Positions 2,833 to 15,570 of a stretch of 37,175 nt of DNA are shown piece by piece. Both the position numbers and the translations under genes were made by a program. Source of the stretch: Clostridia bacterium (lineage in GTDB: Bacteria; Bacillota; Clostridia; TANB77; CAG-508); contig JAUNSP010000007.1 of the NCBI GenBank assembly GCA_030539155.1, forward strand, positions 1 through 37,175. The letters are read 5' to 3'. The stretch's first letter is position 1; every line of letters begins with the position of its first letter. Below the pieces are notes generated by a model. It searched no databases. It saw nothing but the letters and a program-made list of their open reading frames with translations, and was not told the origin of the DNA.

Positions 2833-2933
2833 AGCAGGATAAGATGCTTGCACAACAGCACCTATTAATCGCTTATTTCATAAGAAATTGGTATGTGCAA
2901 GTCTTATTTTGCACTTGCAAAATTCATCCTGCT
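2833..2933. other. Branched inverted-repeat structure, oriT-like or RNA-like
   Basis: Three nested or adjacent stems form a three-way junction. The outer stem is AGCAGGAT / ATCCTGCT. The long arm is AAGA-TG-CTTGCACA pairing with TGTGCAAG-TCTT (2841-2854 with 2894-2905), and contains an inner CTTAT/ATAAG hairpin. The short arm is ATTTTGCACTTGCAAAAT at 2906-2923. The structure lies outside the genes, between the cargo terminator and the recombinase promoter. The short arm and the AGCAGGATAA block recur near the ICE relaxase operon (15433-15525) at nearly the same spacing. The best reading is an origin of transfer recognised in trans; a structured RNA is the alternative. Confidence 0.6.
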
Positions 2934-3001
2934 AAAGTAGGTTGATATAAAAGAGAAAATAATGATTTTATATTATTATTTCAATAATTGAAGAAACAAA
3001 A

Positions 3002-3045
3002 AATCATCCTAATTTCTAATTTTCATTAATTTTTATAGGATGATT
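3002..3045 (-). terminator. Terminator of the cargo gene pair
   Basis: AATCATCCT / AGGATGATT, a 9-bp stem, followed on the minus strand by six T. It begins 9 bp past the stop of the CFI-box-like gene and separates cargo transcription from the recombinase operon. Confidence 0.8.
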
Positions 3046-3053
3046 AATTTTTA

Positions 3054-3632
3054 TTAATTATTAGTTTTTAATTTTAAAGTTTTTACAAGTCTATTTATTA
3101 ATGCTGGTTTTGCAAATTGCTGTTCTAATGCTAAAACACTATTTTTATATCTGCTATATGCTGCATCATAGTTTCCTTGTTCAATTTGTTTGACACAATA
3201 ATCTACTATGTTATCATAAATATAATCATAAACTATACCAGAATTTTCTTCTTTATTAATAGTTTCAACAATTATCGGTGCTACTTCATAATAATGTTCA
3301 ATATCTTCTTTTGAAACAAAATTATTTCTAAACCATCTTAATACTGTTAATTCATAACAATTATCATCAAATTTTTCTTGGAAATACTTCATACATGCTG
3401 AAGTTAAATAACAACTACCAGATCCCGAACTTGTATCACTTTTATCTGGTCCATGTGTTGTAGAACTCCACGACTCTTTATCATAATTTACATTAACGTG
3501 TGCTGCATCATGTGGTTTATCAACTTCTCCTCCATAAAAACTAATGTGATCGTTTCCATTTTTATCAGTAGTTATTTTTATAGTAACACCTTCATCATTT
3601 ACATAATTTCCATACTTATCCCTATCTGCCAT
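3054..3632 (-). CDS. CFI-box-like protein, cargo of the small element
   Basis: 192 residues. The N-terminal 70 are polar and glycine/serine-rich (DKYGNYVNDEG, then a SSGSGS linker). Then comes CYLTSACMKYFQEKFDDNCYELTVLRWFR followed by a helical tail. The C-x-x-T-x-A-C block, DDCYEL-like segment and LRxFR resemble the C-terminal 'CFI-box' domain (usually CFITTAVC ... DDCYELTxLRxFRD); Cys74, Cys80 and Cys92 fit it. The biochemical role of that domain is not established to my knowledge. The start was chosen at MADRDKYG because GGAGGTG lies 7 nt before it; the upstream ATG contains the SD itself. It overlaps the preceding gene by 11 bp. Confidence 0.6.
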   Translation of the reverse strand: MADRDKYGNYVNDEGVTIKITTDKNGNDHISFYGGEVDKPHDAAHVNVNYDKESWSSTTHGPDKSDTSSGSGSCYLTSACMKYFQEKFDDNCYELTVLRWFRNNFVSKEDIEHYYEVAPIIVETINKEENSGIVYDYIYDNIVDYCVKQIEQGNYDAAYSRYKNSVLALEQQFAKPALINRLVKTLKLKTNN

Positions 3633-3981
3633 TATTAACACCTCCAATTTTAATTTCTGATATTCTCAAAGAAATAATTGCATCTAACCACAACAAAGAC
3701 CACTCTGCAAAATAAGATTTTAAAGATTTTGTCTCAGTATCTAAATCTATTAAATCAAATTTTATATTTTCTAATTTTTCTTCATCTATGGATACCAAGT
3801 TTCCTTTATTTACATATGTTGATAAAACTATTTTAGTTTCAGCTAAAACTTTTTCAAAATTTTCTTTTTGCTCTTTGTATATATCAAATTGAGTTGAAAC
3901 TGTAACATAATAAATTAAATTTTTAAAAGCATAATCGATATTTTCTTTTGTTGGGTTTCCTACATTAAAAGTTTCCTCCAT
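3622..3981 (-). CDS. Unknown protein paired with the CFI-box-like gene
   Basis: 119 residues, acidic and mostly helical by composition (ENFEKVLAETKIVLSTYVNK, DTETKSLKSYFAEWSLLWLDA). No domain recognised, no signal peptide or membrane span. An ATG with AAGGAG 8 nt upstream was chosen over an upstream TTG. Its end overlaps the start of the CFI-box-like gene, so the two form a coupled pair. A two-gene cargo on a minimal element suggests a defence, toxin-antitoxin or fitness role, but nothing in the sequence identifies which. Confidence 0.6.
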   Translation of the reverse strand: MEETFNVGNPTKENIDYAFKNLIYYVTVSTQFDIYKEQKENFEKVLAETKIVLSTYVNKGNLVSIDEEKLENIKFDLIDLDTETKSLKSYFAEWSLLWLDAIISLRISEIKIGGVNNGR

Positions 3982-4067
3982 TAACAAATCTCCTTTCTTG
4001 CCTTATATTATATATCTTTTTCAAAATAAATCAATATTTTTTACTCATTATTCCCCATAAATAACTA

Positions 4068-14158: not shown

Positions 14159-14420
14159 TTGCAACCTCTTTTTTAGGATTTAAAATTTTTTCTTTTAGTT
14201 TAACAATTTCCGTTTCAAACATAAAATTATTACATTTATTACAATGTGGCATTTCTTCATTTAATTCACCTTCATAAGCATTCTCATACATATCCATTAA
14301 TGAATCTTTTGTTTCACTATAAGTCGTTTTTAAAACATCATGTCTTACAAATGTATTATCACAATGTTCACATTCCAATTTAACATATATATCATATTGA
14401 TAATTATAATGTTCTACCAC
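14145..14420 (-). CDS. Small zinc-ribbon protein
   Basis: 91 residues with two CxxC knuckles, CEHC (Cys17/Cys20) and CNKC (about 60/63), separated by an acidic helix. This is the usual layout of a zinc ribbon. It is probably a DNA- or protein-binding accessory of the mobilisation operon. The start is GTG with GGATGA 6-7 nt upstream. Overlaps on both sides (7 bp with the preceding gene, 14 bp with the MobC-like gene) show operon translation. Confidence 0.65.
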   Translation of the reverse strand: MVEHYNYQYDIYVKLECEHCDNTFVRHDVLKTTYSETKDSLMDMYENAYEGELNEEMPHCNKCNNFMFETEIVKLKEKILNPKKEVANEIE

Positions 14421-14815
14421 TTTATCTCATCCTTTTCTAATTTCTTTAATTCTTTTAATACATAATTTAGTATTTGTAATTTAACCGGATCAATTTTATC
14501 TTCAGTTTTTTGTTTTTCTAAAGAGTGGTAAGGTTCCAATTCTGGCAAAAAATAATTTATTCCAAACTTTCTATAATTTTTTAACCATTCGGCGATTCTT
14601 CTATAAGGCAAATTGTCATGTAATATATTTGTATTTATACTAGCACGATTGAAAATATCTTTACCAGTTAATTCTGGAAATTCTAATCGCATCATAATAC
14701 ACCACAATTTAAAAACAATATCATATTCTATAACTCTTTTATAATGTATTTTATTTATAAACATATTTTGCTTTAATTCAGCTATTTCGTTATCAGTATA
14801 ATATCTCAATTTCAT
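14414..14815 (-). CDS. HTH-like protein of the mobilisation operon
   Basis: 133 residues. KRVIEYDIVFKLWCIMMRLEFPELTGKDIFNRASINTNILHDNLPYRRIAEWLKNYRKFG resembles the helix-turn-helix unit found in some transposase-like and element-borne proteins (GKxPxxIFxxAGF...RIxxWxxxYRKxG). No catalytic part is present, so DNA binding is the only function suggested. It is charged at the C-terminus. SD GGAGA precedes the ATG, which overlaps the stop of the upstream gene by 4 bp. Confidence 0.5.
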   Translation of the reverse strand: MKLRYYTDNEIAELKQNMFINKIHYKRVIEYDIVFKLWCIMMRLEFPELTGKDIFNRASINTNILHDNLPYRRIAEWLKNYRKFGINYFLPELEPYHSLEKQKTEDKIDPVKLQILNYVLKELKKLEKDEIKW

Positions 14816-15234
14816 AAATCTCTCTCCAAAATTCTACTGTTGTTAATTTTTTCAATAACTAAATTTTTTGTTTGATCATCATCTAATATTTCTCCTGCAA
14901 TTTTCTTAACTCCCTCTAAATCAAAATAATCTTCTAACTTTTTATCTTTTGCTATATCATAAACATATCTTTCTGTTTCATTCATTAAATTTCCCCAATA
15001 AAATACCATATCAAATTCTTTTGATTCTTTATCAAATTCAAAATATGCTATATTTTCATTTGAGGCAATATCTTCACAAATCGCATCTAAATTATTTAAA
15101 ATATAATTCTTAGAATCTATATCAAAATCATCTAAATAACTATCTAAGAAAACTAAATAACTAAATCCACTAGTTTGACTCATTCCGTAATTTATAATAT
15201 CATTCGCTATTAATTTATTTAATGTCATCTTCAT
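14812..15234 (-). CDS. Unknown acidic protein, second gene of the mobilisation operon
   Basis: 140 residues, acidic, soluble (FLDSYLDDFDIDSKNYIL, EFDMVFYWGNLMNETERYVY). No domain recognised. GGAGG lies 11 nt upstream of the ATG, inside the end of the RHH gene, which it overlaps by 20 bp, so translation is coupled. The overlap with a DNA-binding RHH partner could fit a toxin-antitoxin arrangement as well as a relaxosome accessory. I cannot choose between them. Confidence 0.55.
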   Translation of the reverse strand: MKMTLNKLIANDIINYGMSQTSGFSYLVFLDSYLDDFDIDSKNYILNNLDAICEDIASNENIAYFEFDKESKEFDMVFYWGNLMNETERYVYDIAKDKKLEDYFDLEGVKKIAGEILDDDQTKNLVIEKINNSRILERDL

Positions 15235-15382
15235 AGAAATCCATTCCTCCTTTCAAATATTTAATAATTCCTATTTCAATAAGTTTTATTATCATTTTAT
15301 TAATACTAAGGTTTTCTTGTCTTGCAAACAACTTAACCTTTTCATATAATTCTTTTCTTAATCTTAATAAAAAATGTGTCAT
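15215..15382 (-). CDS. Arc-type ribbon-helix-helix protein, first gene of the mobilisation operon
   Basis: 55 residues with an excellent SD (AAGGAGG, 5 nt spacing). HFLLRLRKELYEKVKLFA then RQENLSINKMIIKLIEIGI is the Arc/CopG pattern: short strand, helix, SxN turn, helix. It binds DNA as a dimer in the family. It lies immediately downstream of the putative oriT and opens the operon that ends with the relaxase, so it is a good candidate for the oriT-binding relaxosome protein and operon autoregulator. The overlap with the next gene shows coupling. Confidence 0.75.
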   Translation of the reverse strand: MTHFLLRLRKELYEKVKLFARQENLSINKMIIKLIEIGIIKYLKGGMDFYEDDIK

Positions 15383-15432
15383 TTTTTCCTCCTTTTTGGT
15401 CTAAATATTTCTAAAAATATATTATTTATTAA

Positions 15433-15570
15433 AGCAGGATAAAGGGAATAATATCATCTGTCTTAATTTCTTTTATAAATAAAAGAAAGACAGTGATATC
15501 ATTTCACATTTTGCACTTGCAAAATCAACCATAATTCTTGTATATTTAGACCATATATAATAATTTATCC
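15433..15570. other. Putative ICE oriT: branched inverted-repeat region
   Basis: In the gap between the M23 gene and the RHH gene, GGATAA (15437-15442) can pair with TTATCC (15565-15570). Inside is a long hairpin: ATATCA-t-CTGTCTT (15451-15464) with AAGACAGTGATAT (15487-15499), topped by CTTTTAT/ATAAAAG. Then comes ATTTTGCACTTGCAAAAT (15508-15525). The AGCAGGATAA block and the 18-bp hairpin are shared with the small element at nearly equal spacing. Its location just upstream of the relaxase operon is classic for oriT. No nick site can be named. A regulatory RNA is the alternative. Confidence 0.6.

Follow-up and report, generated by a model that had tools for sequence, protein, structure and literature searches.

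The 37,175-nt stretch of DNA analysed here (the window; contig JAUNSP010000007.1 of a Clostridia bacterium) carries a small integrative element next to an integrative and conjugative element (ICE), and each of them contains a non-coding site with the same layout of a short block, a hairpin of varying sequence and a palindrome. Judged from their sequences, both sites are very probably origins of conjugative transfer (oriTs) of the MobL/MobP2 kind, the small element being a hitcher moved in trans. Direct support for this reading comes from a family of related sites, their gene contexts, the conservation of the hairpin, the covariation of its arms with a small ribbon-helix-helix (RHH) protein, and the loss of the RHH gene. 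An original prediction, made from the window alone, had proposed that the small element mimics the oriT of its neighbour. Mimicry of an ICE stands, but the copied subtype is C, whereas the resident ICE belongs to subtype B.

A family of probable oriT sites

The two sites and their parts are the following.

2833–2960: oriT of the small element, subtype C, its extent given by homology to the ICE L166
2833–2842: core/nic block of the small element, minus strand 5'-TTATCCTGCT, with a putative nick after ATCCTG from its fit to the MOB_P consensus
2846–2901: variable hairpin of the small element, from folds, with arms GCTTGCACA (2846–2854) and TGTGCAAG (2894–2901)
2906–2923: palindrome ATTTTGCACTTGCAAAAT of the small element, its inner 16 bases invariant by design of the search
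15433–15560 (right end approximate): oriT of the ICE, subtype B, laid out as that of the small element
15433–15442: core/nic block of the ICE, minus strand TTATCCTGCT, putative from its fit to the consensus
15448–15505: variable hairpin of the ICE, from folds, with arms AATAATATCATCTGTC and GACAGTGATATCATTT
15508–15525: palindrome, ICE copy

Both copies of the block, AGCAGGATAA, and of the 18-mer palindrome are found where the original prediction had placed them. No other exact copy of the 18-mer exists in the window or in the 1.41-Mb genome, and with up to three mismatches there are four matches in the window (two sites on both strands) versus 0.29 expected from shuffles; the block by itself is not unusual there (5 found with one mismatch allowed, 3.25 expected). 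As single-stranded DNA, both regions fold better than shuffles on both strands (z −4.15 to −5.12). An outer pairing had also been proposed to close each region: that of the small element, AGCAGGAT/ATCCTGCT, recurs in a less complete form within its own subtype, and that of the ICE, GGATAA/TTATCC, is present in the sequence but shows by eye no sign of conservation in related ICEs. The two window oriTs give no blastn alignment at 1e-3, which speaks against closeness of the pair, and only recombinase DNA aligns between the small element and the resident ICE (65–68% identity over parts).

A scan of genome contigs with the pattern AGCAN{0,3}TAAN{46,76}TTTTGCACTTGCAAAA returned at least 114 loci, where about one chance match was expected by our own arithmetic. 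The family is laid out over ~128 bp as a core block (AGCAGGATAAG or AGCATAAG), a variable hairpin, the invariant TTTTGCACTTGCAAAA (hereafter the 16-mer) and a further inverted repeat. As the pattern itself demanded block and 16-mer, finding them carries no weight as evidence, unlike gene context, hairpin, downstream repeat and arm matches, on which it placed no condition. Seven loci (L124, L155, L164, L165, L169, L176 and L213) were dropped by eye as chance matches on the grounds of block sequence, missing hairpin or host. The remaining 107 loci, which together with their ICE and hitcher subsets are counted among the matches listed, form 69 clusters at 10% edit distance. A MobL relaxase is seen at 28 of them, other conjugation genes only at five, and none of these at 74, 45 of which have a serine recombinase. 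At the 33 ICE loci, a relative of the M23 peptidase lies to the right of the site (33/33), a gene of the relaxosome operon to its left (33/33) and MobL in 28. Relaxosome genes adjoin the site in ICEs of all four subtypes (A to D). Such a genome search had been suggested as a check of the oriT reading, which is upheld by the outcome: the matches stand beside MobL (HxH) operons or in elements that have no relaxase, many of which carry a serine recombinase. The core common to MobP2/MOB_L plasmid oriT regions supports it as well.

The full pattern occurs in none of 2.9 million viral contigs, and no relative of the ICE relaxase appeared in the viral contigs scanned with it. The 16-mer alone proved a poor probe: of 91 viral stretches with the 16-mer, a single one is preceded by an AGCA-TAA block at up to 110 bases and the full pattern is matched by none, and in the scan of the family three of the six genomes with the 16-mer (G102, G077 and G059) look by eye like chance matches inside genes. 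The relaxase has relatives in two genomes among 292 from the family and in eight among 385 from the order, the genome of the window being counted in both. When the search started from the relaxase in random genomes, all four MobL loci of 44–47% identity with upstream DNA (L006 and L111–L113, the window aside) had the exact 16-mer upstream, three of the four being the same loci as later pattern matches. Moreover, in genomes picked for holding a hitcher, the 16-mer stands at eight of nine MobL loci (L238–L242, L244, L257 and L258, where L257 extends L246 and L258 extends L245), the block of L257 and L258 being TCAGGATAAG. The form of the block clusters on the relaxase tree (5 label changes versus a shuffled mean of 7.7 over 32 rows; 6 versus 8.8 over 39 rows), with the CAGGATAA rows not demonstrably forming one clade.

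The oriT function has been shown for pLS20 (PMC5313138) and for pWBG749 (PMC8136818). The core AAGAGCATAAGG occurs once in each of nine MobP2 plasmid regions upstream of the RHH gene, pWBG749 and a pLS20-like one included, the eight besides pWBG749 having been hand-chosen, one per genus, among 30 of 155 records; shuffles predict the core in ~0.1 of eight such regions, and the 16-mer is in none of the nine. The layout of MobL/MobP2-type oriTs, in which the core, next to an inverted repeat, is followed by an RHH gene and then by the relaxase gene, is likewise found here. In this line, the pWBG749 family of S. aureus (SmpP/SmpO) is alike in its MobP2 relaxase, in the RHH gene between oriT and relaxase and in the AAGAGCATAAGG core; one of its inverted repeats differs between subtypes, the RHH protein SmpO being its reader (GATATCA is the OT49 site), and relaxase-less elements mimic each subtype (PMC8136818). 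Its mimics are plasmids, however, whereas those found here are integrative elements, many with serine recombinases and with ICEs as helpers, and its oriT region lacks the TTTTGCACTTGCAAAA that accompanies the core CAGGATAAG in the window. On the other hand, pLS20 of Bacillus subtilis (MOB_L) is alike in its relaxase family and in a AAGAGCATAAGGGGAA core followed by a hairpin; the space between its oriT and relaxase contains two RHH genes for the accessory proteins Aux1 and Aux2 (PMC5675868). The pLS20-like oriT has no such 16-mer, and the opposite flank of its core carries a TTTTGC-GCAAAA repeat, beside which the nic of pLS20 was mapped; we considered this repeat as the same feature and dropped it because of its position on that flank. 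As for the nick, the minus strand of both window blocks, TATCCTGC, fits as T-ATCCTG-C the nic consensus (C/T)ATCCTG(C/T) of the IncP/VirD2 MOB_P region (PMC3772185), unlike the ICEs of subtypes A and D, which have CTTATGCT or a near form in place of the fitting block. Those ICEs have the core AGCATAAG, whereas the form in the window is the longer AGCAGGATAA, which is not exactly the plasmid core.

Hairpin arms and the adjacent RHH protein

The hairpin was compared in 71 sequences, namely the 69 cluster representatives and the two window copies. With arms 37% identical among them, own arms pair at a mean of −11.6 kcal/mol versus −5.6 for swapped ones, and the mean z against mononucleotide shuffles is −4.5, with values below −2 in 92%. 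The operon of the resident ICE begins, as predicted, with an RHH-type gene, whose 55-aa product (15215–15382, minus strand) fell under the 60-aa cut-off of our first list of open reading frames (ORFs). Its Arc/HicB matches lie just below the Pfam cutoff, its AlphaFold model has two helices after an extended N-terminus (pLDDT 85), and its structural matches are weak (AmrZ, Arc and CopG at best, all with E above 0.05). By eye, an RHH-like ORF of 54–73 aa, in some cases with a TTG or GTG start, adjoins the oriT in 35 of 35 ICE loci examined; by profile, the gene is there in 33 of 34.

Over 23 ICEs, the distance between β-strands of this protein follows the distance between arms once the relaxase is accounted for (partial Mantel r 0.736, p 0.0002, such p values on related sequences being indicative only). 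The rest of the RHH protein follows the arm more weakly (r 0.434), and the relaxase given the RHH protein yields r −0.23 (0.44 unconditioned). A variable inverted repeat matched to an RHH accessory protein, as in the pWBG749 type, is thereby seen as covariation in these 23 ICEs. In subtypes A and B, strands of the form H-x-(F/Y)-x-LR accompany TGATATCA or a close variant. RVELK-YV is paired with TGTCCCT, RRFDFWL with TTACACA and RTT(I/L)R with GACACCA, and the hitcher L152 combines an intact RHH gene for KRFNFYL with TTGCACA arms like those of the small element of the window. L183 and L193 are two ICEs with 93% identity across 7.7 kb, and within 2.4 kb of the oriT their two lowest 100-bp stretches are the small gene beside it (51%) and the oriT hairpin (68%).

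Since the arm changes with the RHH protein encoded next to it, specificity probably resides in this part of the oriT, and by the same covariation the hairpin of the small element would be a specificity site read by an RHH protein. The long arm had been described as varying, and so it does, only not freely. We see an even chance that hairpin arm and β-strand act as a swappable address label, that hitchers, many of them with defence cargo, have copied the labels of all four ICE subtypes and that ICEs, to judge from the single case of L183 and L193, can change label and reader together with the rest nearly constant. Mechanistically, the ICE oriT lies between the relaxosome operon (from the RHH gene to the second accessory protein and the relaxase) and the M23–VirB4 genes, and the relaxase would cut the core block on its minus strand, at CTTATCCTG^CT. 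The RHH protein encoded alongside would read the adjoining hairpin and set specificity, and TTTTGCACTTGCAAAA would be the common part, perhaps a site for the relaxase or for the second protein. The small element retains a copy of such an oriT and its own serine recombinase with neither relaxase nor RHH gene, so that an ICE with a matching RHH protein would nick the excised element and send it on in trans; it is one of many hitchers of this sort. What we infer in this scheme is where the nick falls, that the RHH protein binds, and that the element is excised and transferred.

Hitchers, candidate helpers and rival readings

Subtypes were assigned by simple rules of our own, which two loci do not fit. 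With the window added, the matches listed comprise 7 ICEs and 25 hitchers in subtype C, 2 and 9 in B, 15 and 37 in A, 10 and 2 in D, and 0 and 2 unplaced, and for 68 of the 75 hitchers the ICE with the closest oriT shares their subtype. Closest to the small element in the window is L131 of subtype C, at 25 edits, the resident subtype B ICE standing at 46; as its arms and downstream repeat are of subtype C and not B, the resident ICE may not be its proper helper. Seven ICE–hitcher pairs were hand-picked for alignment, and six of them align at the oriT alone or nearly: three over 127–129 bp (the small element with L166, 128 bp at 2833–2960; L148 with L173, 129 bp; the subtype B hitcher L126 with the ICE L129, 127 bp plus 32 bp elsewhere) and three over 228–292 bp (L139 and L141 with L125, 228 and 242 bp; L133 with L136, 292 bp). 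The seventh, the window's own pair, aligns only in the recombinases. The left edge of the homology with L166 is the block itself, as would be expected if the copied DNA were that 5' of a minus-strand nick.

A profile built from the ICE proteins finds an RHH gene within 450 bp to the left of the oriT in two of 75 hitchers (L152 and L218). Among the 73 sites without it, the 9-bp arm is identical to that of an ICE in 31 and has at most one mismatch in 50, versus 0.1% and ~6% of shuffled arms; by cluster, RHH bearers included, the figures are 21 and 35 of 51 (shuffled exact, 0.2%). L218, a sibling 86.6% identical to the window element over 1.9 kb, keeps an RRFNFYL-type RHH gene broken by an in-frame stop, and the window copy is deleted save for its start, so the small element seems to descend from one with its own RHH reader of the type expected from its arms. 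A MobL relative is found in 7 of 46 hitcher genomes, a higher share than in the genomes of the order (8 of 385; Fisher p 0.0003) or of the family (2 of 292; p 0.00002), in genome sets not matched for lineage.

The small element fits the class of iOriTs (integrative, with an oriT and no relaxase; PMC11389934) by its own recombinase, its precise insertion and the absence, as had been predicted, of any match to a relaxase family among its four minus-strand ORFs (short plus-strand ORFs lay outside the scan). Its oriT is common with a possible conjugative helper through the 128-bp homology to L166, an ICE of another genome, and is not shared by blastn with the resident one. RHH-read oriT mimicry is already known from pWBG749 plasmids (PMC8136818) and the iOriT class has been named (PMC11389934), a MobL-type family with an RHH address code not being named in the accessible text of the latter. 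Searches of the open-access literature returned no paper with the 16-mer and, among the papers listed, no account of such a MobL-type family of relaxase-less oriTs; by title, none of those listed for the core concerned conjugation. oriTs are often short, degenerate or unknown (PMC11389934) and relaxase-less integrative elements are hard to recognise; 16-mer and core find them by pattern and tie them to an ICE family. Moreover, the arm-to-protein code suggests which ICE moves which hitcher and makes helper choice testable on small proteins and short pieces of DNA; if true, helper–hitcher networks in many uncultured bacteria would be readable from ~9 bp.

Several observations weigh on the other side. 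The MobL locus L256 (which extends L243) and the more distant L110, L122 and L123 have no 16-mer, some hairpins are weak (z above −2 in ~8% of the 71), and among the forms of the core CAGGATAAG alone agrees with the nic consensus of MOB_P, the AGCATAAG ICEs falling outside it. The nic site of pLS20 maps next to GGCTTTTTGCtgccGCAAAAAGCC (PMC5313138) and its AGCATAAG core is ~45 bp away, so that the core may not be the nick there. The arms of the small element differ from those of the resident ICE at 5 of 9 positions at best, and in six co-resident ICE–hitcher pairs (one ICE per genome, G509 left out) they match within 1 of 9 in three and not in the other three. No MobL relative is visible in 39 of the 46 hitcher genomes, which are draft bins covering 50 of the 74 loci. 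Relatives of the 107-aa accessory protein of the ICE occur at five of the 74 hitcher loci, 20 of the 74 extend less than 1 kb to one side and may have conjugation genes beyond the piece, and one contig (L203) has a Mob_Pre (MobV-type) relaxase nearby (2210–3484, minus strand).

These accessory relatives would also suit small elements that were decayed ICE remnants, like cis-mobilisable elements (CIMEs), keeping an oriT by chance, as would the RHH pseudogene of the near relative L218, the oriTs of L139 and L141 at 6 edits from that of the ICE L125, and the recombinase DNA shared by the two elements of the window. We nevertheless consider such an origin improbable, as 74 of the 107 loci have no match to MobL, the coupling protein, VirB4, M23 or the two small operon proteins, homology is confined to the oriT in six of seven pairs, recombinase placements differ within one oriT cluster (L134, L146, L153, L156, L172, L175, L186, L200 and L206) and defence-type cargo recurs. 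The hairpin could instead be an autoregulatory operator of the RHH operon, its covariation reflecting repression and not oriT specificity. Relaxosome RHH proteins often also repress, and the site is just upstream of the RHH gene; at 73 of 75 hitcher sites, however, the hairpin has no RHH gene alongside to control, and the corresponding repeat of pWBG749 sets mobilisation specificity (PMC8136818). The operator is in our opinion an unlikely explanation of the covariation, and both roles could coexist.

Far less credit is due to a conserved structure working as RNA, regulatory or terminator-like, and not as DNA. Hairpins with compensatory changes would fit RNA too, but no Rfam family reaches its gathering score in either oriT region, relaxosome genes are adjacent in the ICEs of all four subtypes, the same core stands in experimentally known oriT regions and the arms track a DNA-binding protein. 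Relaxase-type initiators can also start rolling-circle replication, which would favour a replication origin common to both elements, or else a phage packaging signal; with no full pattern in the viral contigs and with all 33 ICE copies lying between relaxosome-operon genes and M23, this too is highly improbable.

Gene content and cargo

The remaining features of the small element are these.

829–4073: small relaxase-less integrative element, inserted in a gene with LysM repeats, 3239 bp core to core
829–834 and 4068–4073: ATCTCC cores, ends of the small element
846–2450, minus: large serine recombinase (Pfam Resolvase, Recombinase and Zn_ribbon_recom; CcrB-like below cutoff)
2411–2608, minus: 65-aa ORF adjoining the recombinase, also beside it in related elements; no family match
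2704–2721 (approximate), minus: remnant of the start of an RHH accessory gene, remainder deleted, from alignment to L218
3054–3987, minus: cargo genes of 197 aa (CFI-box-CTERM-like, below cutoff) and 121 aa

Those of the resident ICE are as follows.

4817–6460, minus: large serine recombinase
6732–8747, minus: T4 coupling protein (VirD4/TraG; Pfam T4SS-DNA_transf 6.7e-65; NCBIfam CD1115 family above cutoff)
12532–13848, minus: MobL relaxase (Pfam MobL 48.8 bits, cutoff 28.5)
13841–14164, minus: second small accessory protein, 107 aa, from its position beside the relaxase; weak NCBIfam Mbov_0398 match below cutoff
15215–15382, minus: RHH accessory gene adjoining the oriT, 55 aa, β-strand THFLLRL
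15573–16490, minus: M23 peptidase
16487–18979, minus: VirB4-like ATPase

Joining the flanks of the small element in silico at ATCTCC gives a single open frame with LysM repeats (LysM by Pfam); in the interrupted gene Pfam finds LysM and no amidase domain, 'amidase' being a reading of the sequence only. The ICE starts near 4787, by reading in the same LysM-repeat gene, and its right end lies past the contig, so that both elements would sit in one gene (829–4787). The 65-aa ORF has phmmer matches at L140, L154, L159, L161, L197, L200, L208, L214, L216, L218, L224 and L235.

The relaxase belongs to MobL (PF18555) by a score above the gathering cutoff and by the HUH/3H motif HADTDNLHIH at residue 149, and matches in sequence the solved relaxase 9qq7 (9.5e-8). 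With 57.4 bits against a cutoff of 200, it is related to the MobP2 subfamily named by NCBIfam (NF041498) and lies outside it. The same genome has a second, distant MobL relaxase (G000:C76, L110, 3–1283; 33–36% identical), whose 6.1-kb contig does not carry the 16-mer. The VirB4 of the ICE has its best match in NCBIfam Mbov_0397, a Mycoplasma ICE ATPase (494 bits, cutoff 590); together with the weak Mbov_0398 match, this sub-cutoff score hints that the ICE family may be kin to mycoplasma ICEs. Genes with DUF1848 (PADLOC RTasDUF1848 model), SIR2 and Macro domains stand side by side in its cargo (20201–22684).

Among hitcher proteins, a regular-expression screen for HUH-like motifs gave a single ORF, the Mob_Pre of L203; with such a screen and a Pfam tally of the 25 commonest of 100 families, a rare hitcher relaxase could be missed. 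A second class of hitchers (L174, L189, L196 and L228) has a run of small ORFs to the left of the oriT, the nearest of which resembles the 107-aa accessory protein in L174, L196 and L228. The survey of cargo took in 50 hitcher representatives and, serine recombinases excluded, 96 proteins of at least 190 aa encoded no more than 2.6 kb from the oriT, a set of which part will be host genes since the element ends are unmapped. Pfam and PADLOC report Shedu, ApeA, NERD, Fic, an N6 methylase and several PDC-S candidates, with a Schlafen-type helicase in L174 and PDC-S02 in the hitcher of G096. Hitching of this kind is a possible route for phage-defence genes between these bacteria. Finally, the 197-aa cargo protein of the small element has a relative on the contig of another hitcher (L259, 14318–14888), where it adjoins an ORF similar in length to the 121-aa partner (13948–14888 for the two).

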